This document shows positions 7,536-31,622 of a stretch of 32,572 nt of DNA, piece by piece; positions within the stretch are counted from its first letter, which is position 1, and each line of letters opens with the position of its first letter. Below the pieces are notes generated by a model. That model worked only from the letters and a program-made list of their open reading frames with translations, had not been told where the DNA came from and searched no databases. This stretch comes from a virus, in IMG/VR virus record IMGVR_UViG_3300035183_001033, positions 1 through 32,572 of that record. The stretch is one strand, 5' to 3'. The position numbers were made by a program, and so were the translations under genes.

Positions 7536-8837
7536 TCAGAGGAGTTCGGCTGCGATGGCGTTGGCGACTCCGGCGCCGATGGCTGCGTAGCCGGCAGAGT
7601 TCAGATGAACATTGTCGGCATTGTACTCATCCTTGATGTCATCGAGGTTGCCCGGGGGGCCGCCGGGGTCGTTTTTCCCGATGAGCGCGTCAGTGTCCAC
7701 ATAGAGCGCGCGGCCGTAGTAGGTGGTGTTGATGAGATTGAGGAGGGCGGTGTTGGCGGCGCGGCGCTGGTTGTGGGCTTCGCGGTAGGTCGCGTTGCAC
7801 CAGTCGCGGCGAGGCGCGATGCCGAGCAGCACAGGAAAGATGCCGGCGTTGAGCGCGGCATCAATCATCACGATCATGTCGGAGAGCCAGTTGGCCTGGT
7901 TGAAGTTCGGCCATTCGTTCGCGATGTTGTTCGTGCCGCACCAGATGAAAACGAGGCGCGGGGCGAGATTAACCACATCGGCGTTGAAGCGGGTGCGGAT
8001 GTTGGCGCTCGTCTGCGAACTGATGCCCATGTTCTGGACGCTGATGCCGAGTTGTTGTTCGACGGTCCAGGTGTATTGGGCGGTCTCCGTAAAGGTATCG
8101 AAATAGCTCCCGGTGGCCTGTTCGATGAGGCTGCGGGTGCCCGGGCTGCCAGCGGTGAGAGAGTCGCCGATCGCGATGGCGTCGGGGGGCGGGCCGAGGA
8201 GTTGAATGGGGACAGCGGCATCGGGGACGTTCGAGGTGCCGCTGAGCCACATATCATCGCTCGGCGCGGTGGCGGTTTTCGCGACGGTGAGCGCGTAGCT
8301 CGTGGTGGAGGCCGGCACGAGCGGGAAGACGGCGCTCGAACAGGAGAAGCCCCAGCCGATGTGATCGCCGCGGCGGACGCCGAGGATGGGGCGGGCGAAA
8401 GTGACGGTGTTGAGCGAGTTCGCGGTGAGCTGGTAGAGCAGGTTATTCGAGCTTCCTACGATGTACCAGTGGCCGTTGATGCGTCGCCACACGTCAATCT
8501 GGAAGCGGGTGACGTTGGTGAGGGCCTTGAACCAGAATTTGGCGCCCGTGACGATGGGCATATGGCGCTGAACCCGCATCGGATTTCCGAGCAGCAGGGC
8601 TTGAGTGTCATTCGAGGACCCATGAGATCCGGTGCCGTCAGCCGGGGTGAGATAGCCGCCGCCGATGACATGCATGGCGCGGCGATGGATGCTGGACATG
8701 GCGGCGCGATCGGCGAAGGCGCGGCGGAGTCCGGCGGCGGTGAGGCGGCGTGAGCCGCTCGAGGAGTGATCGAGCAGGAGGTTATCCGCGCTGGTGAGAC
8801 CAGGGGCGGAAAAAAGGGAGGAGGGTCGGATGCGCAT
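7536..8837 (-). CDS. SGNH/GDSL-family hydrolase, virion-associated esterase
   Basis: 433 residues. The C-terminal domain has the SGNH blocks in order: AIGDSLTAG (nucleophile Ser226), NMGISSQTS (Gly271), IWCGTNNI (Asn303/304) and DNVHLNSAGY (Asp408, His411, the DxxH pair). Such enzymes cleave ester bonds, often O-acetyl groups on polysaccharides. The N-terminal 200 residues are beta-rich without a recognised domain and could be a virion attachment or carbohydrate-binding module. The gene lies inside the tail block between a small protein and the tail chaperones. The likely role is modifying host surface polysaccharide during adsorption; substrate is unknown. No signal peptide, which fits a virion protein. 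Confidence 0.88.
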   Translation of the reverse strand: MRIRPSSLFSAPGLTSADNLLLDHSSSGSRRLTAAGLRRAFADRAAMSSIHRRAMHVIGGGYLTPADGTGSHGSSNDTQALLLGNPMRVQRHMPIVTGAKFWFKALTNVTRFQIDVWRRINGHWYIVGSSNNLLYQLTANSLNTVTFARPILGVRRGDHIGWGFSCSSAVFPLVPASTTSYALTVAKTATAPSDDMWLSGTSNVPDAAVPIQLLGPPPDAIAIGDSLTAGSPGTRSLIEQATGSYFDTFTETAQYTWTVEQQLGISVQNMGISSQTSANIRTRFNADVVNLAPRLVFIWCGTNNIANEWPNFNQANWLSDMIVMIDAALNAGIFPVLLGIAPRRDWCNATYREAHNQRRAANTALLNLINTTYYGRALYVDTDALIGKNDPGGPPGNLDDIKDEYNADNVHLNSAGYAAIGAGVANAIAAELL

Positions 8838-12960: not shown

Positions 12961-14943
12961 TTAGGCGCTCACGAAGCGGTGACCGCAGGCGGTGGAGCCG
13001 CGGGCCACGCCGTAGATGACGTCGAGGCGCGTGTTGAGCGCGCGGGTGTTCGGGTCAATCCAGCGATCGCTCAGGAGCGAGAGGCCGGTATTGGGATCGC
13101 GGATGACCTGGAGGTTGCCGATGTAGTTCGCGCCGATGAGGCGCTCCGGATTGTCGGCGATGCGCGTGGCGAGGACCAGCGCGGAGCGTTGGAAGGCGAA
13201 GCCGATGAGGTTGATGCCGTTGTTGGGCAGCGCGGGGTATTCCCAGATCGCGTCGAACCCTTTCACGTTTCGCCATTGGGCGTAGGCGCTGGCGTTGTTC
13301 GCGAGGCCCGGGGTGCTGATCAGGATTTCATCCTTGCCGAGCGCCTCGGCGAAATCAGAGTTGACCCACATATTGCGGCCGAACGGCGGGGCGCCGTTCG
13401 AGTTGAGGGCCTTCGCGGCGGTGGCGATGTCATCGTAGCTCTTGAGGTTCGCCGCGCCGGTGGTGACGCTGGTGAAGGCGGTGGTGATGAGCGCGGCCAG
13501 GGCGTCCACGATGGAGTTACCGAGGGCGACGCTCTGGGCTTCGGCGTGCTCTTCGACCAGGTTGCGCGCGGTGGCCAGGTACTCGGCCGCCGTGAAGGCG
13601 TAGAGGACCTGCTTGTGATTCGAGAGCTGGACGGAGACGTCGGTGTCGGCGGTGTCCGTGGCGGCGGAGCCGAAGTTGGCCACGGTAGGAACGCCGATGA
13701 TGCGGGTGATGATGGTCTGGTTGAGGCGAGCCTGCTCGTCGCTGAGGTCGAGGGTGACGCCCAGGAGGTAGGGCCGGCGCGCTACGATGAGATCGAGCGT
13801 GCGCTGGGCGATGAGGCTCGAAGCGAGGGTGCCGAGGACGTTGGCCGCGGCGATCGCGCCGTCTTTCGCGCGGTAGCGCTCGAAAGGAATGCGCTCGCCC
13901 TTGTCGAGCAGGGGCTTGAATTCTTTCAGGTAGATGTGGCCGGCTTCGAGGGGATCCTTTTGGAGGGCGTCCTGGTAGCCGGTGAAGGCGGCCTCGATAG
14001 CTTCGCGCGTGATTGAGGCGCGCGGCGTGGCGGTGATGGCCTCGCCGCGTGCGGCCGTGACGGCGTCACGCACGGGCAGAGATTCGAGGAGCTTGGCGTT
14101 CTCGGGATCGGCCAGGATGAGTTTGGCCCAGCGGTCCTGAGTGTCTTTGTCCTGCGGCGCGATGGCGCCGCGACGGACATGAGAGGCCACGATGGCCTCG
14201 GCTTCGGATTTGCGCTTCGCCTCTAAGGCGGCGCGAGTTTTTTCGAGTTCAGCTTTCAGGGCGGCGATCTCGGCCTCGCGATCCGGCGCGGGGGTGGGCT
14301 GGTTGGCCGCGGCCACGGGCGCCGGGGCGGGGGTATTGTTCGGGGGTGTTTGTTCGGGCATGGGGGTGACGGAGGGTTGTTGTTTTTCGGGTGAAGGATT
14401 TTTCGCCCAAATGGGGGCGATGCTTCGGAAAGCCGGGTCGTTAGTGAGGGCCCCCATGTTCAGGGGCGCGCCGGCGATGCCCGCGGGATCGCCCGGGGCA
14501 TCGTAGAATTTGGGAGAGAAGGCGCGATAGGTGCGGCCGGCGATGGCCTCTCGGCCGGCGGCGCTCCATTCGACGCGCGCCCAGATGCCGGGCTCGGGTT
14601 GGTCGCGCCAGGCGAATTCGAGCGGCCAGCCGCTCGCGGCCTTGTTCTCGTGGTCGAAGTCGAAAAAGGGTCGCTGGCGGCTCTCGCTTGAAAGGTTACG
14701 GCGCGCGGCTTCGACGGCAGCAGCGCCGGAAGGGTCAACGCGGATGCGGAGAGAGACCGGCACCCCGGCGCGGGAAGCGGTGATGGCGTGTTCGCCAGCG
14801 GGCATCCACATGATCCATTCCGGGACGGGCGCGGCCTCGGCGCCGAAAGGGAGGGCGAAGCGGGCGTCGAGCGGCGGGCGCTCAGCGTCGGGCGGGTTGG
14901 TGCCGGCCGGCGCGGGCGGCGGGGTCGAGACGTTCTCCGGCAT
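12961..14943 (-). CDS. Fused Mu I-like protease, scaffold and major capsid protein
   Basis: 660 residues in one uninterrupted frame from ATG 14943 (upstream codons of the longer frame look non-coding). Residues about 40-180 resemble the Mu I prohead protease (DFDHENKAASGWPLEF with His98, WARVEWSAAGREAI, YRAFSPKF with Ser143, GALTNDPAF). Residues 195-300 are Pro-rich, then a coiled coil (EIAALKAELEKTRAALEAK) as expected of a scaffold. From about 310 a major capsid domain follows (TREAIEAAFTGYQDAL, KQVLYAFTAAEYLATARNL, FGRNMWVNSDFAEALG). In Mu these are separate I/Z and T genes. Met195 could be an internal start for a scaffold-capsid form, as Z is in Mu, but lacks a visible ribosome-binding site. 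The protease would have to release the capsid domain. Confidence 0.8.
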   Translation of the reverse strand: MPENVSTPPPAPAGTNPPDAERPPLDARFALPFGAEAAPVPEWIMWMPAGEHAITASRAGVPVSLRIRVDPSGAAAVEAARRNLSSESRQRPFFDFDHENKAASGWPLEFAWRDQPEPGIWARVEWSAAGREAIAGRTYRAFSPKFYDAPGDPAGIAGAPLNMGALTNDPAFRSIAPIWAKNPSPEKQQPSVTPMPEQTPPNNTPAPAPVAAANQPTPAPDREAEIAALKAELEKTRAALEAKRKSEAEAIVASHVRRGAIAPQDKDTQDRWAKLILADPENAKLLESLPVRDAVTAARGEAITATPRASITREAIEAAFTGYQDALQKDPLEAGHIYLKEFKPLLDKGERIPFERYRAKDGAIAAANVLGTLASSLIAQRTLDLIVARRPYLLGVTLDLSDEQARLNQTIITRIIGVPTVANFGSAATDTADTDVSVQLSNHKQVLYAFTAAEYLATARNLVEEHAEAQSVALGNSIVDALAALITTAFTSVTTGAANLKSYDDIATAAKALNSNGAPPFGRNMWVNSDFAEALGKDEILISTPGLANNASAYAQWRNVKGFDAIWEYPALPNNGINLIGFAFQRSALVLATRIADNPERLIGANYIGNLQVIRDPNTGLSLLSDRWIDPNTRALNTRLDVIYGVARGSTACGHRFVSA

Positions 14944-14982
14944 GGCGTTGGTGATGATAGTAGCGCGGCTCGCGCGCGCAAG

Positions 14983-14993
14983 TGACCTGGTCA
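14983..14993 (-). promoter_or_regulatory. Dyad TGACCTGGTCA upstream of the capsid gene, candidate late operator
   Basis: An 11-base palindrome 40 bases before the capsid start. On the minus strand it is followed after 20 bases by TACTAT, a possible -10 element, with no good -35, as in activator-dependent Mu late promoters. The same dyad with conserved flanks (CTGACCAGGTCA then TTGC and CGCGCG) occurs at 21755..21765. The activator that binds it is not known. Confidence 0.55.
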
Positions 14994-14996
14994 GAG

Positions 14997-15515
14997 TTAA
15001 GCGAGCGGCGACGCGCCAGGCTCTGGTTCGGAGAGGAGGCGTTGCAGGGCGCGGATGCCCGCGCGGAGCATGAGGTCGGCGGCGTCTTTGGTGAGCCGGC
15101 CGGAGTCGTCGAGCGGCACGAAGGGGCGCGCGGGGATGGTGACCTGCTTGACCGACCACCAGCGGCCGCCTGATTGGAAGCGCAGCAGTGGCTTGTCCTT
15201 CGGCTTGATGGTGCCGCCGAATTGATGAATGGCGGCGTAGATGGTTGGGTTGCCGAGGGTGACAGAGTTCGATGAGACGTCGAGGGTGAAGGATTTGGCT
15301 AGCGTGCCGGAGGCTTGAAGATTCGAGGCGGAGCCGTCGCGCTTGGGGGGCCAGGGCTTGGGGCGGAAGTCGGCACCGACGGAGTTGAAGGCGCCCTCGG
15401 TGATGGACTTCAACGTGGTGCCGATGGAGCGAAGCACGGGCTCCTGATTCTGATTGAGTTCGTCCAGGCGGCGCAGGAAGCGGGCGATCTGGGCGGTGTT
15501 GATGTTGATGCGCAT
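14997..15515 (-). CDS. G: G-like virion morphogenesis protein
   Basis: 172 residues from MRININTAQIARFLRRLDE; the 30 upstream codons of the longer frame overlap the F gene and look non-coding. The order of segments fits the Mu G / phage virion morphogenesis family: an N-terminal helix, ITEGAFNSVGADFRPKPWPP, LQASGTLAKSFTLDV, then YAAIHQFGGTIKPKD and IPARPFVPLDD. The AxIHQFGG and PARPF motifs are hallmarks. These proteins act in head completion/tail joining. It follows the F-like gene by 8 bases and precedes the capsid promoter region. Confidence 0.85.
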   Translation of the reverse strand: MRININTAQIARFLRRLDELNQNQEPVLRSIGTTLKSITEGAFNSVGADFRPKPWPPKRDGSASNLQASGTLAKSFTLDVSSNSVTLGNPTIYAAIHQFGGTIKPKDKPLLRFQSGGRWWSVKQVTIPARPFVPLDDSGRLTKDAADLMLRAGIRALQRLLSEPEPGASPLA

Positions 15516-24278: not shown

Positions 24279-24572
24279 TTACCAATGACTTAGAAAAGGG
24301 TCGCAATTTTTTGTGGGTTGCGTTGTGTCCAGGTCATCGGGTTCGGTCGGCGGTGGCGGCTCGATCAGGCGGTACTCGGTGCAGACAACTCGGCCGCGCC
24401 GGGTGATCCGCGGCGGCGGGATGTGGTGCCCGAGCCTTCTTAGTTCAGCGATGCGCGAATGCACCGCGTAAGCGCCCGAACACGCGGCGAGCTCGGGCAT
24501 CGGAACCCAGTCGCCGCGCGCGGCGCGGAGGCGCGCGAGGATGGCCTGGGCTTGGGTTGGGTTAGAGTTCAT
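24279..24572 (-). CDS. Winged-helix domain protein
   Basis: 97 residues. The N-terminal two thirds match a small winged-helix domain seen in many prophages: QAILARLRAARGDWVPMPE, LAACSGAYAVHSRIAELRR, LGHHIPPPRITRRG, then a beta wing with EYRL. The C-terminus is Pro/Thr-rich. It probably binds DNA. Last gene of the early operon, ATGA-coupled to the gene before it, so it may take part in the early-middle switch, although the HTH gene at 21768 is the better activator candidate. Confidence 0.7.
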   Translation of the reverse strand: MNSNPTQAQAILARLRAARGDWVPMPELAACSGAYAVHSRIAELRRLGHHIPPPRITRRGRVVCTEYRLIEPPPPTEPDDLDTTQPTKNCDPFLSHW

Positions 24573-25144
24573 GTCTGGACTGGATGGACGGGGTGGACGG
24601 GGGCGGCGGCGCGGCTCGTTCGGCGCGCGCCAGGGCGATGCCGGAGAGTCGCGTAGAGCCGGCCGATTTCTTCATGATCGAGGCGCGACAGATCAGCGTG
24701 GCCATACACATCATTCATGACTTCTCGGAGGTAGTGAGGATGGACGCGGCGGCGAAGCCACCATTCGCGACGGCGTCGTTCACCGGCGCTGCGGTCCTGC
24801 CATTGGATCATGGCTTCGAGGTCATCTGGGTCGGCGAGGAGTCGGAATGCAGCGAGCACGCGGTCGAGTTCGAGGTCGAGCAGTTCACGCGAGGAGCGGT
24901 CGTAGCCGAGCGCGGCGATGTGAGTGGCGTGTCTGAGGTCGTCTGGCGTGGGCGCGCGATGGAAGGCGCGGGCGCGGAGTTCGGCGAGGCGCCAGATTTC
25001 GGCGAGTAGCGAGGTGGTGATGGGGCCGCCCCAGAGGGCGCGCGGGGGCGCGGCGAGGCGTCCGCGGACCAGCCGCCAGCCCTGCGCGCGCGCGGCGCGA
25101 TTCCATGCGGGCCAGTAGAGGCGGAGGAGTTGGCGGCGGGTCAT
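24569..25144 (-). CDS. Phage protein, weakly GemA/gp16-like C-terminus
   Basis: 191 residues, Arg- and Leu-rich and mostly helical. The N-terminus (RRQLLRLYWPAWNRAARAQ) and the part around VHPHYLREVMNDVYG, LSRLDHEEIGRLYATLRHR (135-170) resemble the arrangement in Mu GemA/gp16 (DUF1018): a final sequence of P-x-Y-L/V-R, a ND/N-x-x-G turn and an E-x-x-x-L-x-x-x-L helix. GemA modulates host gene expression in Mu. Similarity is faint and may be misleading; the gene could be unique. ATGA-coupled to the winged-helix gene. Confidence 0.6.
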   Translation of the reverse strand: MTRRQLLRLYWPAWNRAARAQGWRLVRGRLAAPPRALWGGPITTSLLAEIWRLAELRARAFHRAPTPDDLRHATHIAALGYDRSSRELLDLELDRVLAAFRLLADPDDLEAMIQWQDRSAGERRRREWWLRRRVHPHYLREVMNDVYGHADLSRLDHEEIGRLYATLRHRPGARRTSRAAAPVHPVHPVQT

Positions 25145-25198: not shown

Positions 25199-25879
25199 TC
25201 AGGCTTTGGGAGGTGAAAGGGCATTGAGGCGTTCGCGCGCGGCGGCGAGGATGGCGCGGGCTTTTTCGATGCTGACCGGCGTGGGCGCGGGCGGTTGCGG
25301 CGGCGGCGGGGCTTTGGCGAGTTCGCGGAATTGCTCCCAGTCACAGTCGGCCTCGCGGAAGGCGGGCGGGATGAATGGGAGGTCGAGGGCCTTGAAAACA
25401 TCGTGCTCGGTGGCGCTGGCCAGGAGAGTGTCGCCGCGAAAGACGCCCTGGTGCGGATTCCAATGGAGGCCGAGTTGTTGGGCGCGGCCGGCGAGGCGGA
25501 TGTTGTGTTCGCGGCTGCCGGTGCGCGCGAGGAGCAGGGTGCCCCAATTCGTGGGGCGGGTGCTGAGGAGGTCGCGCTGTTCGGGCTGAGCGAACCAGAG
25601 GTCGAGTTGGATATGATCGCCGGAGTGCTGGTATTTCCCGGGAGGGAGTGGCAGGGCGGCGATGAGGGTGGCGTTGCCTTCGACCATCGGCCGGGCGCGG
25701 CGCAGGACGCGAGCGCGAAGGTCGCGCTCGCGTCCTGGCTTGGGCAGGATCACCAGGTCAATGTCGCCGACGGTGGGGCGGCCGCGCCGAATGGAGCCGG
25801 CGATCTCGATGCGCTCGCAGAATTCGGCTAGGGCCTGCACGATGATTTCGGCGAGAGTCAGGGCCTGGTGGAGGAGCAT
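25199..25879 (-). CDS. Minimal family X DNA polymerase (palm and thumb only)
   Basis: 226 residues. The nucleotidyltransferase signature AGSIRRGRPTVGDIDLVI gives Gly28-Ser29 and catalytic Asp39 and Asp41; the third carboxylate is Asp93 in HIQLDLWF. The segment LLLARTGSREHNIRLAGRA followed by HQGVF matches the pol beta/PolX thumb pattern (TGS-x-x-HN-x-x-L-R-x-x-A), and EHDVFKALDLPFIPPAFRE is the family's C-terminal motif ending IPPxxRE. The 8-kDa lyase domain, helix-hairpin-helix and PHP domain of bacterial PolX are absent, so this is a shortened enzyme. The C-terminal 40 residues are a Pro-rich linker and helix. PolX enzymes fill short gaps. The early-operon position between Gam and the DNA-binding genes suggests repair of transposition gaps or end processing. 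Activity is not shown. Confidence 0.85.
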   Translation of the reverse strand: MLLHQALTLAEIIVQALAEFCERIEIAGSIRRGRPTVGDIDLVILPKPGRERDLRARVLRRARPMVEGNATLIAALPLPPGKYQHSGDHIQLDLWFAQPEQRDLLSTRPTNWGTLLLARTGSREHNIRLAGRAQQLGLHWNPHQGVFRGDTLLASATEHDVFKALDLPFIPPAFREADCDWEQFRELAKAPPPPQPPAPTPVSIEKARAILAAARERLNALSPPKA

Positions 25880-25891
25880 GGAGGCGAGAAG

Positions 25892-26245
25892 TTAGGAGTG
25901 AGAATTGGGAATTGAGCCGGCGCGGCGGGCCTGGATGGCGCGCAGGTCGCCGGCGCGCCAGGCGAGGCGATGGGGGCCGAGATGAATCTGGCAGTTCTGT
26001 GCGCGGAGCCAGGTTTCGCTCACGCCGATCAAGGAGGCGGCCTGTTTGGCGCCGATGACGAGGGCATCGTCATCGGCCGGGATTTCGCCGAGCGGCTCGC
26101 GCTGCGCCCAGGGATCGGGCGGCGTGGGGTCGGGCAGAGATACCCAGCCGCGCTCGATGGCGCGCGCGACCAGCGGGCGCGGGTCAAAGCCGAGATAGGA
26201 GATCACCCGGTTGAGTGTGATTTCGATTTCGATGGCGAGGTTCAT
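25892..26245 (-). CDS. Small protein with excisionase-like DNA-binding C-terminus
   Basis: 117 residues. The C-terminal half (LVIGAKQAASLIGVSETWL, RAQNCQIHLGPHRLAWRAG, DLRAIQARRA) has the AlpA/excisionase-type pattern: K-Q-A-A-x-L-I-G-V-S-x-x-W-L, then a short wing and a basic end. The N-terminal half starts with alternating hydrophobics (MNLAIEIEITLNRVISYLG). The C-terminal DNA region overlaps an AT-rich stretch. It sits after PolX in the early operon; DNA binding is inferred, role unknown. Confidence 0.6.
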   Translation of the reverse strand: MNLAIEIEITLNRVISYLGFDPRPLVARAIERGWVSLPDPTPPDPWAQREPLGEIPADDDALVIGAKQAASLIGVSETWLRAQNCQIHLGPHRLAWRAGDLRAIQARRAGSIPNSHS

Positions 26246-26263
26246 TGGAGTGCCGATTGACGT

Positions 26264-26506
26264 TCAGTTTTTTGAGAGGAACTGTGGGGCGCGGCGAGCG
26301 CCTGGCCGTGTAGCCGGAGCGATGGGTTGAGGCGGGACGGCGACCAGGCAGCCGGTATCGCAGTCCAACTGAATGGCGGCCCGGCCTTCAAGCCAGGCGC
26401 GCAGGTCCTCCCGACGTTCCGGGTCGGCGAACAGGCCGGTGATTTCGTCAAGCGCCCACATTTCCTGGGGCGCCAGGTTGGCGAGTTTGAGCGTGTAGGT
26501 GTTCAT
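26264..26506 (-). CDS. Hypothetical early protein
   Basis: 80 residues beginning MNTYTLKLANLAPQEMWAL, followed by an acidic helical segment (FADPERREDLRAWLEGR) and a strand IQLDCDTGCLVAV with two Cys residues. No family recognised and no membrane segment. It is ATGA-coupled to the upstream 65-residue membrane protein and belongs to the early operon by position. Confidence 0.6.
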   Translation of the reverse strand: MNTYTLKLANLAPQEMWALDEITGLFADPERREDLRAWLEGRAAIQLDCDTGCLVAVPPQPIAPATRPGARRAPQFLSKN

Positions 26507-26700
26507 CTTTCCATTGGGTTGTGCCGCGCGATGCGCGGCGGGGTTTTGGTTTCCGCGTTGGCCGGCGCGGGCTCGACACTCTTGACGATCCCGCGCAGGT
26601 CAAAGCTGTGGATGACACGGATTTCGATGGCGCTGTCGCGGCACATCCAGGTGATGAGGATGGCCGCGGCGGCGAGGATCGCGGCGGTGAGCGGTTTCAT
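26503..26700 (-). CDS. Small single-span membrane protein
   Basis: 65 residues. The N-terminus MKPLTAAILAAAAILITWM is a membrane helix or uncleaved signal, followed by a soluble part with VIHSFDLRGIVKSVEP and a Pro-rich end. Function unknown. It starts inside the Gam stop (ATGA) and ends in the next start, so it is a real member of the early operon. Confidence 0.65.
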   Translation of the reverse strand: MKPLTAAILAAAAILITWMCRDSAIEIRVIHSFDLRGIVKSVEPAPANAETKTPPRIARHNPMER

Positions 26701-27242
26701 GAGGCTTGAGAGGGTGAGGTTTCACGCTGCTTGACCGGCGTTATTTCCGGCTCGACAAAGAACTCCTCGGCCTGCTCGACGCGGCAGCCTAGCGCGCGGA
26801 GGTCCTCGTGCTCGCGCGCGGCGAGCAGGGCTTCGCGGTCAGGCTCTTCCTTGACGCGGATGAACTCTCGTCGGCCCAGGCGGCGGAGCGTTTCGAGCAC
26901 GTCATTCCAGGTGAGGCCGCGCAGGGGCTTAATTGATGGAGGATTGGTGCGCCAGCCGATACGGCCGTGGAGCATGACTAGGCTGCGGAGGCGGCCAAAG
27001 AGCGATTGGTTTCGCTCGGCCCAGAGTTCGAGGGCCTGCACGGCGCTGGCGATCTGCGCCGCGATTTCTGCCAGTTCGTCCTGGTACATCTCGCGTAACA
27101 GTAAGAGTTCGGCGTCCATCGCCACCTTGGTCGCGGCTTCGGCGGATTTGAGTTCGGCCACGCGGAGCAGTACGGCTTCGGCCTGCTCGCGTGAGGTCGG
27201 AACTTCGACGGTGGGTTTCGGCGCTTTGATGCGGGCTTTCAT
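26697..27242 (-). CDS. gam: Gam-like host-nuclease inhibitor (Ku-fold)
   Basis: 181 residues from MKARIKAPKPTVEVP; 20 further codons upstream in the longer frame overlap the previous gene and were left out. The Mu Gam family pattern is present: REQAEAVLLRVAELKSAEA and LLLREMYQDELAEIAAQIA form the long paired helices, then LELWAERNQSLF, the beta segment LHGRIGWRTNPPSIKPLRG and FIRVKEEPDREALLAAREH. Gam binds DNA ends and blocks RecBCD-type nucleases; it shares ancestry with bacterial Ku. Its start overlaps the stop of the zinc-ribbon gene. Confidence 0.88.
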   Translation of the reverse strand: MKARIKAPKPTVEVPTSREQAEAVLLRVAELKSAEAATKVAMDAELLLLREMYQDELAEIAAQIASAVQALELWAERNQSLFGRLRSLVMLHGRIGWRTNPPSIKPLRGLTWNDVLETLRRLGRREFIRVKEEPDREALLAAREHEDLRALGCRVEQAEEFFVEPEITPVKQRETSPSQAS

Positions 27243-27493
27243 GAGTATGGTTGGAGTTTGGGGGTGCTGCGGGGCGGGCGGTGCCCAAGGCAACGCGGGC
27301 AAAGGCGTGTGCCCACGACCCAGGGACGCTCCGGATGGAGCGCGTCAATCGAATCTCCTGGGCGATGAAATCGGCCGCAGCTAGGACAGCGATAGCAGTC
27401 TTGTCGGTAGAGCGGGGCGAGGCCCCAGATGAGGAGCGCGACGCCGATCGCGCCGATGGCGAGGGCGATGATGGAGCCGAGTGTGGGGTTCAT
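27239..27493 (-). CDS. Membrane protein with a zinc-ribbon-like CxxC pair
   Basis: 84 residues: one membrane helix (about 7-29, SIIALAIGAIGVALLIWGL), then Cys33, CPSC (36-39) and CPRC (65-68), which could bind one zinc ion. The basic C-terminus is Pro-rich. It lies between the MuB-like and Gam genes and is coupled to both by ATGA overlaps. Not recognised as a family; might tether early functions to the membrane. Confidence 0.65.
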   Translation of the reverse strand: MNPTLGSIIALAIGAIGVALLIWGLAPLYRQDCYRCPSCGRFHRPGDSIDALHPERPWVVGTRLCPRCLGHRPPRSTPKLQPYS

Positions 27494-28512
27494 TCTTCCT
27501 CCTGGTTCTGGTTCTGCGGTTTGATGCTCGCGGGGTCAAGCCCGGCCATGCCGATCGCGTGGGCAAGGATGGCATCGGGCGCGATTTCTCCGTTCTCCGC
27601 GGCGGCTTCGGCGGCGGCGATGGCGTCCGCGAGCAGGCGGAGATTTCCGTGCTGCTGCAGCACTGGCGTGAGTCGCGCGGCGAGGCCGGAGGCGACGGCG
27701 GCGTCCAGTTCGGCGGCTTCTCGCAGGTAGGCGCTTACGTCGCGGGGCTGCGTGCCGGAGCGGTAGTTGTCGAAGATCGGCTTGAGACAGCGGCCGCGAA
27801 AGGCCTGCGCTTCGATGAGGGCGTCCGTGGTGGCTACCATGACGCGCCGGTAGGCCGTGTCGTAGCCCAGGTACACGAAGCGCGACGGCGTCTCATCCAC
27901 CAGCACGCGCAGCAGGTGCATGAGCGCCGGCCCGCCCTCGTGGGCCTGATCGAGGAATACCGTGCGGGCCTGGCCTCGGAGCATCGAGATGAGGCGCTCT
28001 TCGGCGGTGGCGGCGTTCGGCAGGTCAGTGTCCGCGCCGAGAGCGCGCGCGATGCCGTTGGCGATGTGGATCAACTTGTTTCGCCAGCTATCGCGAATCT
28101 GACAGTAGGCGCGGTCGCCTGGCGATTGAGCAACGCACCAGCGGGCGGTGGTGGACTTACCGCAGCCGGTGGGCGCGAGGACCACGAGGATTCGGCGGTC
28201 ATTGGCCTGGCGTTCGAGCAGGGATACGCGCGCGATGAGTTCGCGCGTGAACGGGAGGTCGCGGAAGAACTCGGCCTCGGGTAGGCCGCCATCAAGAATG
28301 GTGGCGATTCGGCGCAGGCGCTTGAGCATGCGCTCCGGCCTGAGCTGATCCCAGGCGCCGGCCATTAGGCGCTGACGCCAGGTGCGTGTGCTGCCGAGGT
28401 CTGGGAATTGTCGGACGAGGCGGACGTCCGACAGGCCTGCGGTTTTCTGATAGGCCGCGAGGCGGTTAATAACCGCCTGGGCCTCCTCTCTCTGTGCTGT
28501 GTTCCATGTCAT
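27490..28512 (-). CDS. B: MuB-like transposition ATPase
   Basis: 340 residues. The N-terminus carries a helix-turn-helix-like region (LSDVRLVRQFPDLGSTRTW), then an AAA+ ATPase domain: Walker A APTGCGKST (113-121), Walker B TVFLDQAH (184-191, Asp188) and DQAHEGG, typical of MuB/TniB/IS21 helper ATPases. The role is to choose target DNA and stimulate the transposase. GGAGAG lies 5 bases before the ATG at 28512. It follows the transposase gene by 27 bases, as A-B in Mu. The acidic C-terminus ends in EEE. Confidence 0.9.
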   Translation of the reverse strand: MTWNTAQREEAQAVINRLAAYQKTAGLSDVRLVRQFPDLGSTRTWRQRLMAGAWDQLRPERMLKRLRRIATILDGGLPEAEFFRDLPFTRELIARVSLLERQANDRRILVVLAPTGCGKSTTARWCVAQSPGDRAYCQIRDSWRNKLIHIANGIARALGADTDLPNAATAEERLISMLRGQARTVFLDQAHEGGPALMHLLRVLVDETPSRFVYLGYDTAYRRVMVATTDALIEAQAFRGRCLKPIFDNYRSGTQPRDVSAYLREAAELDAAVASGLAARLTPVLQQHGNLRLLADAIAAAEAAAENGEIAPDAILAHAIGMAGLDPASIKPQNQNQEEE

Positions 28513-28539: not shown

Positions 28540-30651
28540 TCATTCCAGTTCGGCCAAAGCTTCTGCAAGGCGAGGGTCAGTGTAGCGCGGCGCGATGTCG
28601 CGGCGCGTCGGCATGTGGGCTCCAGCTTCGTGGCCCGGATCGAGGCGGGAGCGCGGCGCTGGATCACCAGCCTGGGTGCGATCCAGCGCTGCCGGCGCGG
28701 CGGCCAGGCCGCGATCCGGTGCTGCCCCCGTGGTTACGCCGTTGGACTGCGAAAGCGGCGCGGCGGCGCGCACGGCGCGCACATCGGCGACGAGTTGTCG
28801 CGCGGCCAGGCTGGCGGCTTCTCGGCCGATGTCTGGATCGAGACCGTAGCCGAGGGCGCGGCGCGTGTAGCGCGTGAGGCGGTCAATCTGTTCGAGCGTG
28901 CCGAGCACGGTGCCCGCGCGGTGGCCCTGAAAATCCTGTGCGAGCACGGCCGTGGCGGAACACTCGGGCGCGAGCGGGTCGAAAAAGAGCTTCACTTTAG
29001 CGCCGTGCCAGTCGCCAAGCCAAGGCGCGGAAAAGGTGAATTGCTCGCTGCGGCCGGGGATGAGAGTGAGGCTGGTGCGCACCTGCGTCCATTCGACGGT
29101 GACCTGGGCGATGCGCGGCGCGAACATCCAGAGGTCGCGCGCTGGGATGCGGCGGGTGGCCGATTGTCTGGCCCACCAAGCGGCCGGCTGCCAGCGGCCC
29201 TGGCGGCCGTCAACCCAGCGTTGATTCACGCGTTCGATGGCGGCGTCGAGCGCGCGCAGGAAATCGGGGAGCGCCATGAGTTCACCGCGCGGATCGCGGC
29301 GGCCTTCGCGATAGGCGGTCCAGAGTCGGTTGCCCGCCTCATCTTCGCCGCGGAATCGGCCCACTTGGCCGGGCAGAGTGCTTAAAGCGGTCCAGAGTGA
29401 ATTGAAGACCGACTCGACGATTTTCTGGTGCGGTGAGCTGGCGCGGATGATTTGGACGCCGAGCGCGGCCATGGTGTCGCTGATTTGGCGTGCGGAGCTG
29501 ATGCCGCGTTCGAGCACGATTTCTCGAGGCGCACCGTGCGCGGCGATGCAGGCGTGAAGCGCGGAGGTGATGTCTTCGGCGCGGTAGCTGTCGCGCGGGC
29601 GCGCGGTGTAGCTGCGGCCGATGATGCAGCGGGTGCGGTGATCCACCGTAAGGAGAAGCTGGAAGCGGCCCACGACCACGCCCCATTTTTCCCAGCATGC
29701 GTCGCCAGGAATTTCGAGGCCTGGAACAACCACGAGCATGTTGATGCTGCCGTCGTCTATGGTCCAGCGGGCGCCTGGTGGAATGTGAGCCTCGCCGGTG
29801 TCGGGGTCGGTTTCGAGTTGGAGCGCGCCCGGAGCAGAGACGTTTTCGAGCCAGGCGCGGCGCGGCGCGCGGGCAGCTTGGTGGACCGGGGCTGGCAGGC
29901 GGATTTCAGCGAGTTGACGCGGTGAGAGAGGCGGCCGGCCGGCGGCGAGGCGCGCACGGATGAGGTCGGAGATTTCGGGTCGGAGCAGTCCCTGTTCGAT
30001 GGCCTGCAGGCAGGCTTCGATGATTGAGCCGTCGGCGCGGGTGCGGTTGGTGGCGAGGTAGATGGCGCGGAGGGCGTCGAGTTCGTCGGCGGCGAGGCGC
30101 GGCAGGCGAGCGCGAGAGCCGTTAGCCCAGGTGCGGTCGGCGAGCGCCTGGGCGTCGAGGTGCTCGGCTTGGTCGGCGCGTTGAAGCCAGCGGTGGAGCG
30201 TGCTCGTAGGAATGCCGAGGGCTGAGGCGATCTTTGGAAGGGGCTGGCCTGCGGCGCGAAGTTCGCGCGCGCGGAGGACGGCGGCGAGGCGCATGGCTCC
30301 AGCGCGGAGATGGCGCTCGCGCGGCGCCGGGGCGCGAGCGTTGAGAGTAGCCGCCAGATGCCTGGACTCTGATTCATGGGGTCCACAATAGGGCGTCGGC
30401 TCACCCCGAGTGCATGGCACTCTAACCCTGCCGGAAATCTCTTCCGGCAACACAACGTCCGCGACGTGAGTCGCTACCGGGGAACCAAATGAACCCGGAT
30501 CGGCATCTGGCGAAATCGAAATCGGCACGGCGGCCCGGCCGGCAGGGGCCGCCGCGATGAAGCGGGTCGAACCCGCGATTGGTCCGGGTACCGACGCTGG
30601 CGCCGGCGCGTCGGCCTCGGATTGGGCAGGCTGCTCGAGGCGGGAATTCAT
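28540..30651 (-). CDS. A: MuA-type DDE transposase with Glu at the second catalytic position
   Basis: 703 residues. Residues 1-115 are Pro/Ala-rich. A helix-turn-helix follows (LRAAGQPLPKIASALGIPT and STLHRWLQRADQ, 131-162). The RNase H-like core has WTIDDGSINMLVVVPG (Asp299/300), VDHRTRCIIGRS (337-347), PREIVLERGISSARQI (Glu381 where the second catalytic Asp is expected), and SPHQKIVESVFNSLW (Glu413, the E of DDE). A beta-barrel-like region and a basic C-terminus follow (QFTFSAPWLGDWHGAKVKL). The start ATG overlaps the ParB-like stop (ATGA). MuA-type enzymes join phage ends to target DNA. The MuA N-terminal enhancer-binding domain is not recognised. Confidence 0.88.
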   Translation of the reverse strand: MNSRLEQPAQSEADAPAPASVPGPIAGSTRFIAAAPAGRAAVPISISPDADPGSFGSPVATHVADVVLPEEISGRVRVPCTRGEPTPYCGPHESESRHLAATLNARAPAPRERHLRAGAMRLAAVLRARELRAAGQPLPKIASALGIPTSTLHRWLQRADQAEHLDAQALADRTWANGSRARLPRLAADELDALRAIYLATNRTRADGSIIEACLQAIEQGLLRPEISDLIRARLAAGRPPLSPRQLAEIRLPAPVHQAARAPRRAWLENVSAPGALQLETDPDTGEAHIPPGARWTIDDGSINMLVVVPGLEIPGDACWEKWGVVVGRFQLLLTVDHRTRCIIGRSYTARPRDSYRAEDITSALHACIAAHGAPREIVLERGISSARQISDTMAALGVQIIRASSPHQKIVESVFNSLWTALSTLPGQVGRFRGEDEAGNRLWTAYREGRRDPRGELMALPDFLRALDAAIERVNQRWVDGRQGRWQPAAWWARQSATRRIPARDLWMFAPRIAQVTVEWTQVRTSLTLIPGRSEQFTFSAPWLGDWHGAKVKLFFDPLAPECSATAVLAQDFQGHRAGTVLGTLEQIDRLTRYTRRALGYGLDPDIGREAASLAARQLVADVRAVRAAAPLSQSNGVTTGAAPDRGLAAAPAALDRTQAGDPAPRSRLDPGHEAGAHMPTRRDIAPRYTDPRLAEALAELE

Positions 30652-31622
30652 GGCTCGCTTGGAGCGAAATCGGTTTCGGCCGGCGCGGCGGGCGCGGCTG
30701 GATCAGGCGGCGGTTCGCTATCGGCTACGGCCGGCTCCGGCTCGGCCTGATCGGCGTGGAGCAGCGCGTCCGCGATCTGTTCGCGGAGGTCGCGCGGCCA
30801 CGCGGCGGCGCGGCGGCGAAGGTCGGCCAGGATGCGCTCGCGGAGAGGCTGCGGCGTGCGTTGCCACCGCGTGGCCTGGAAGGTGGTATGGAGTTGCTCT
30901 ACCGCGCGCTCGAAGAGCTCGATCTGCGTGGCCGGATTGACGCCGCGAGGCTTCGCCTCTGTGGCTTCCTGGCCTGCGATTCCGGCGAGCGCGGCCCCCA
31001 GGCCGATGGGCTTGTCCCAATCGAGTATCTTCGGTTCCCACTCGGCGCGGATTTCCGCGGCCGGGCGGGTGAGTTTGACGAGGCTGACTTTTCGTCGCTC
31101 GCCCGAGAAGATCTCGTGAAGTTCGCGCGCGTATTCGAGGAGGCCCTCGGATACGCCGATAGTCTGGGCGAGGAGAGCGCGTGCCCGATTAGGGTCAGAA
31201 AAAGTGGTCACTGAGTGACCACTTTTTTGCAACCCGCTGCCAACTACCGCTTTCTGCAATTCAACAATACGGGTGTACGCCCGTTCTTCGATCCACTGGC
31301 CGACGAGCGGCCAGGCCAGGTAGGCGCGCTGGCCCTTCGTCAGATTCCGCCTCAGGCACATTTCGCGGAGGATGACCTGGGCGGCCTCGTTGGGCTGGAC
31401 TTCTTCGGCCTCGATCTCGGGGAGCTGGAGGTCGCGGGCCGCCAGGACACGCGTCCAGCCGTCAATCACGAGGCCGTCGCCAGCGGCCACCTGGATGGGG
31501 TGGCGAATGCCGTGCGCGCGGATGTCCTCCACGAAAGCCGCCCATTCCTCGCTGGTCTTGTCCCAGCGTGGCATGGAGGCGATTGCGGGATGGGGGCGGA
31601 GGAGTGCAGGGTCAAGCTTCAT
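30648..31622 (-). CDS. ParB/Spo0J-like nuclease-domain protein with HTH
   Basis: 324 residues. The N-terminal ParB-like domain shows DIRAHGIRHPIQVAAGDG and LVIDGWTRVLAARDLQLPE (the G-x-R-HP-I and I-D-G-x-x-R motifs). A helical part contains QRAYLAWPLVGQWIEERAY, and a helix-turn-helix (RARALLAQTIGVSEGLLEY, 146-164) precedes a variable C-terminus with Pro/Glu-rich tail. Between these domains, residues 132-142 are encoded by the palindrome at 31199..31227. The gene overlaps the RHH gene upstream and the transposase downstream. In phages such proteins may act as early regulators, partition-like DNA-binding factors or nucleases; which applies is unknown. Confidence 0.85.
   Translation of the reverse strand: MKLDPALLRPHPAIASMPRWDKTSEEWAAFVEDIRAHGIRHPIQVAAGDGLVIDGWTRVLAARDLQLPEIEAEEVQPNEAAQVILREMCLRRNLTKGQRAYLAWPLVGQWIEERAYTRIVELQKAVVGSGLQKSGHSVTTFSDPNRARALLAQTIGVSEGLLEYARELHEIFSGERRKVSLVKLTRPAAEIRAEWEPKILDWDKPIGLGAALAGIAGQEATEAKPRGVNPATQIELFERAVEQLHTTFQATRWQRTPQPLRERILADLRRRAAAWPRDLREQIADALLHADQAEPEPAVADSEPPPDPAAPAAPAETDFAPSEP
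31199..31227. repeat. Palindrome copy 3, inside the ParB-like gene
   Basis: A perfect 14-base inverted repeat around one central G with arm AAAAAGTGGTCACT, preceded by GGGTCAG as in copy 1. Read on the minus strand it encodes QKSGHSVTTFS in the linker before the HTH. Copy 1 has GCGCACT where this one has GGTCACT; both arms changed together, so base pairing was kept. Confidence 0.85.

Follow-up and report, generated by a model that had tools for sequence, protein, structure and literature searches.

What role a family X DNA polymerase (PolX) might play in a Mu-like phage, whose early operon encodes it close to the Ku-related end-binding protein Gam, is the question raised by the ORF at nt 25199–25879 (minus strand, ATG start) of the window, an IMG/VR virus record covered in full (32,572 bases). 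The first-pass annotation had read its 226-residue product as a PolX with catalytic residues D39, D41 and D93 and a TGSREHN motif. All of these are present, and the protein matches both the DNA_pol_B_thumb (1.4e-13) and DNA_pol_B_palm (6.2e-6) families of Pfam, passing the curated cut-off of each, while none of the PHROG profiles matched it. The nearest solved relative, by phmmer search of the PDB, is Thermus PolX (3.9e-17), and a profile built from the PolX alignment matches Thermus PolX (1.7e-31), human Pol lambda (4.5e-20) and the PolX of African swine fever virus (ASFV; 5.9e-18), covering nearly the full length (174 aa) of the last. The structure prediction that had been proposed as a check agrees with the profile searches in returning a PolX fold: the AlphaFold2 model (pLDDT 84) has as its top Foldseek match 3auo, a complex of Thermus PolX with gapped DNA (1.3e-14). 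As judged from profile matches and the predicted model, the ORF encodes a genuine family X nucleotidyltransferase reduced to its palm and thumb.

No 8-kDa, fingers or PHP domain could be recognised in the window PolX from its sequence, its open frame or the model, and Pfam gave no PHP match. The open frame spans 230 codons, just four more than the ORF, so that there is no room for a hidden N-terminal 8-kDa domain, and the protein begins at the palm. At the other end, the motif IPPAFRE had been taken as the terminus of the protein; it is indeed found, at residues 170–176, but there it ends the thumb, and the protein continues for another 50 residues. This C-terminal tail (residues 177–226; nt 25202–25351, minus strand) consists of a Pro-rich linker and a predicted helix (residues 204–221 of the model), and the nearest relative (L125:10001-10792) has a tail like it.

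That the gene belongs to an early operon of the Mu type is borne out by profile matches to MuA, MuB and Gam, all encoded upstream on the same (minus) strand; these are the features by which a Mu-like transposable phage is recognised. The operon is headed by a ParB-like gene (nt 30648–31622; phrog_4715, 7e-7), followed by genes for a MuA-like transposase (nt 28540–30651; phrog_310, 9.1e-26), a MuB-like AAA ATPase (nt 27490–28512; phrog_296, 1.5e-12), a small zinc-ribbon-like protein (nt 27239–27493; weak Pfam match, 0.027, and a homologue in L125) and Mu Gam (nt 26697–27242; Phage_Mu_Gam, 2.1e-30, and phrog_491, 1.3e-29). Three small genes then precede PolX, which makes it the fourth gene downstream of Gam rather than the fifth, as previously counted. 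The product of the one directly after gam (nt 26503–26700) has a hydrophobic N-terminus, and L019 likewise has a small hydrophobic ORF between its gam and PolX genes. The other two (nt 26264–26506 and 25892–26245) have homologues in L125, that of the latter in the equivalent relative place. From the ParB-like gene through to PolX the operon is tightly packed, neighbouring genes overlapping or lying at most 27 bp apart. The next gene downstream of PolX (nt 24569–25144, minus strand), in the position of gemA of Mu, has no Pfam match and is common to several Mu-like contigs that carry PolX. As had been noted before, no ligase is visible: neither of two DNA ligase profiles matches the window, nor do they match two related contigs (G002 and G010). 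A weak ligase match in a further contig, G006, was not accepted (14 bits, below the cut-off).

The late region of the window carries terminase, portal, MuF-like and capsid genes. A 732-aa ORF in the window (nt 12961–15159, minus strand) matches a head maturation protease (residues 106–328) and a major head protein (residues 439–637), which suggests a protease-capsid fusion. A 433-aa ORF of the tail region (nt 7536–8837, minus strand) has a lipase/SGNH-like C-terminal half (phrog_6102, 9.4e-11).

Pol beta binds the incoming dNTP by means of two motifs, GSFRR and YFTGSDIFN (PMC13252658). Their counterparts in the window PolX are GSIRR (residues 28–32; nt 25784–25798, minus strand) and ARTGSREHN (residues 118–126; nt 25502–25528, minus strand), TGSREHN itself occupying residues 120–126. 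The first two catalytic residues, D39-I-D41, are encoded at nt 25757–25765 and the third, D93, at nt 25601–25603 (both minus strand). A GSxRR motif is found in all rows of the PolX alignment, and the catalytic acidic residues are present in all 13 Mu-like PolX proteins (DxD plus D in 11, DxE plus D in two); 11 of the 13 retain the full set of triad, GSxRR, TGS and thumb-motif Asn. The chemistry of the enzyme should, from these residues, work. R283 of Pol beta helps to hold the template in place and is important for accurate synthesis. In the thumb of the window PolX, the TGS and the Asn are kept, but the Tyr-Phe pair (Y271 and F272 of Pol beta) is replaced by A118-R119, and the counterpart of R283 is A130. 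These three residues have no counterparts in the whole clade; an Arg at the R283 position is absent from all 13 Mu-like proteins and from the other members of the subfamily, whereas it is present in every cellular and lytic-phage row sampled for the alignment. Since the missing residues bind dNTP or template in other PolX enzymes, templated filling of DNA gaps is not assured, and the fidelity, the choice of sugar and even the templating of this clade may be unusual.

How widely this PolX accompanies Mu genes was examined in IMG/VR, where an alignment of three PolX sequences retrieved 34 loci. Scans of viral contigs with single sequences (the PolX queries P0001 and P0009, and MuB) found nothing, while scans with alignments succeeded. 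The decisive scan was built on patterns from Mu-like members, a choice that inflates the proportion of Mu-like contigs among those with PolX; MuA, MuB and Gam were called with locally built as well as library profiles, a procedure by which a Gam too diverged for its profile would count as absent, and most of the PolX contigs are fragments. At least 13 Mu-like contigs carry PolX, namely the window (G000), G002, G010, G090–G096, G100, G108 and G117, with G095, whose contig ends near PolX, counted through its close kinship with G094 and G096. PolX lies on the same strand as MuB and Gam in these contigs, and downstream of one or the other where they are present on the contig. The survey of Mu-like contigs for PolX near gam, proposed with the first-pass annotation, gave a divided result. 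Gam lies upstream of PolX on the same strand in nine of the 13, at distances ranging from about 65 bp (G091) or a single small gene (G010, in which the early block is rearranged to Gam, PolX, ParB and then MuA, MuB) up to about 4 kb (G002, G090). In three others with both MuB and PolX (G100, G092 and G117), no Gam was detected by profile. One of these, G100, carries the PolX nearest to that of the window (62% identity over 176 residues) and matches the window in gene order. Between MuB and PolX of this Gam-less relative is a gene for a 150-aa protein without Pfam match (L125:8131-8583), which could replace Gam.

Seen from the side of Gam, the pairing is rare: only one of the 80 IMG/VR contigs with the Gam proteins nearest to that of the window carries PolX, which indicates that growth of the Mu type does not generally require PolX. 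Most contigs with this PolX subfamily are without Gam, and in about 23 of them none of MuA, MuB and Gam was detected by these profiles; several of the latter encode tyrosine integrases. Some gene contexts deserve mention in their own right. In G090, which also has MuB, a tyrosine integrase gene lies between Gam and PolX (G090:C1:27853-28416). Two Mu-like contigs have a DUF2786/DUF7168 gene shortly before PolX (L006:8453-9990 and L117:9312-9998), and in the former a phosphoadenosine phosphosulfate reductase-like gene intervenes. A 153-aa PolX of the same subfamily occurs in a contig of an Aenigmatarchaeota MAG (L001:2421-2882), where an IS200 transposase and a family B polymerase are encoded nearby. 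Among named phages, 148 records have a match to Gam and four to the PolX query P0001, while query P0009 added other large lytic phages; no Mu-like phage is among the named-phage records listed with PolX, and a tblastn search of named phages with the transposase gave no match. Listeria phage LM 4-14-1 (L005, OR848551.1) was rejected as a case of phage PolX, as the record resembles a fragment of a bacterial chromosome, with a full-length PolX beside MutS2. A search of a literature library found no paper that joins Mu-like, PolX and prophage.

The PolX proteins of the relatives are 29–62% identical to that of the window, and most of those in Mu-like contigs fall at about 46–53% whether their Gam is 49% or about 25% identical to the window Gam; MuB of the same relatives ranges from 61% down to barely alignable. 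The groupings conflict as well, G090 going with G091 by PolX, with G094 and G096 by Gam, and with G092 by MuB. As the divergence of PolX is decoupled from that of Gam and MuB, and the groupings are discordant, PolX is probably an accessory gene that passes between the early regions of Mu-like phages. The PolX tree places 11 of the 13 Mu-like proteins near each other, which does not demonstrate a single clade, while G108 and G117 fall within a second subfamily in which Asp-Ile-Glu replaces Asp-Ile-Asp; by its starred branches, the Mu label must have changed at least twice. Ratios of dN/dS, estimated by plain Nei-Gojobori counting from just three closely related sequences per set, are 0.06–0.12 for PolX of G094–G096 and 0.17 for L007–L009, indicating that the gene has been kept functional under strong purifying selection. 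A single recent acquisition of PolX can be rejected, given its diversity, the purifying selection and the repeated changes of Mu label. Strict co-inheritance of PolX and gam is likewise rejected, by the discordant groupings and the Gam-less members.

We consider that the chances are about even that PolX is an early-expressed accessory polymerase for short gaps, serving general repair and not Gam-dependent end joining, with a host ligase as the sealing enzyme. We infer that it would be a catalytically competent, stand-alone palm and thumb enzyme, produced early along with the MuA, MuB and Gam proteins, and that it would add a few nucleotides to 3' ends, whether in short gaps or at phage DNA ends that are nicked or broken, after which a host ligase would close the DNA. 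Among its natural substrates in Mu-like phages would be the 5-nt gaps that strand transfer leaves where phage and target DNA are joined. That temperate phages in which no Mu genes were detected also keep PolX favours such a general role over Gam-dependent end joining. The latter had been suggested, as a reduced end-joining or gap-repair module, from the presence of the two genes in one operon and the Ku fold of Gam; in such a module Gam would act as a Ku-like end clamp, PolX would fill or tail the ends and a host ligase would seal them. The pairing does recur, in nine contigs, with the two genes adjoining in G091 and separated by a single small gene in G010, and Gam is reported to stimulate the joining of ends by E. 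coli ligase (Bhattacharyya 2018, cited in PMC8136500). Against this stand the three Mu-like contigs with no detectable Gam, the closest relative included, the differing positions of G090 in the PolX and Gam trees, the decoupled divergence, the single PolX among 80 Gam-bearing contigs, and the prevalence of contigs without Gam, including the roughly 23 with no Mu genes detected, in the subfamily. The association is too loose for end joining by Gam and PolX to be favoured, and we regard it as improbable.

A dedicated filler of transposition gaps, acting only at MuA strand-transfer joints in place of the host PriA/RecABC route, would account for the position of PolX downstream of MuB in nearly every Mu-like contig with MuB (the order is rearranged in G010). 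Repair of the 5-bp gaps is moreover a known problem: those of Mu insertions in E. coli are repaired by host PriA-DnaT and RecABC, and not by a gap-filling polymerase (PMC3325207). But contigs that encode tyrosine integrases, and in which no Mu genes were detected, contain the same subfamily, and most of the Gam-bearing contigs examined are without PolX, so exclusive action at these joints seems unlikely. The residues lost from the clade raise another alternative, that of a PolX-derived nucleotidyltransferase which has lost templated, dNTP-selective synthesis and is template-free, NTP-preferring or strongly mutagenic. The clade-wide loss of the Y271/F272 pair and of R283, the last kept by all sampled cellular and lytic-phage rows, and the lack of 8-kDa and fingers domains are consistent with such a change; the intact triad, GSxRR, TGS and thumb Asn of 11 of the 13 Mu-like members, and a fold nearest to a gap-bound PolX, point the other way, and we think this rather unlikely. 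If the favoured role as a general short-gap polymerase is correct, gap closure after transposition would be one of its uses. The stronger proposal, that a distinct palm-thumb-only subfamily of Mu-like and other temperate phages, its dNTP pocket rebuilt, enables a transposing phage to close integration gaps by itself without host recombination, is a doubtful one. Closure of these gaps is a poorly solved step of transposition, for which Mu uses an unexpected host recombination route (PMC3325207), and with a minimal polymerase encoded within a transposition operon, the idea of an alternative supplied by the phage can be put directly to the test. The window protein would also offer a small, naturally occurring PolX whose nucleotide pocket is altered.

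Among known systems, bacterial Ku-LigD end joining has an end binder and a polymerase in one pathway (PMC1378119); Ku-type systems link an end binder to a polymerase and a ligase, whereas the window has no ligase profile match, and Gam is not a constant companion of PolX. The order ParB-like, MuA, MuB and Gam in the window is like that of other Mu-like phages and recalls the early region of Mu itself (A, B, gam, gemA). PolX is also encoded by large lytic phages, such as Escherichia phage IME392 and phages of Yersinia and Rhizobium, and the named-phage records found with PolX are not the Gam-bearing Mu-like ones. The PolX proteins of the lytic phages are longer (252–318 aa) and retain the R283 counterpart in the rows sampled; those included in the large tree group with cellular PolX on a branch of their own (100/98). 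In IME392 the PolX gene is directly followed by a DNA ligase gene (L104:1147-3402). The best match in both sequence and fold is to the bacterial and archaeal enzymes, as represented by Thermus thermophilus PolX (PDB 3AU2/3AUO), which shares the triad and the TGS motif with the window protein but, unlike it, has 8-kDa, fingers and PHP domains and retains the counterpart of R283. In architecture the closest precedents are the ASFV PolX (174 aa, PDB 1JAJ), likewise a palm and thumb without 8-kDa or fingers domains and of similar size, and a truncated FvPolX (PMC13252658). The phage clade has no close sequence relation to the ASFV enzyme and has its own [A/C]RTGS motif, and the window protein carries an additional C-terminal tail. 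The minimal PolX is a known kind of enzyme, which is found here as a phage subfamily that recurs in Mu-like transposition operons.
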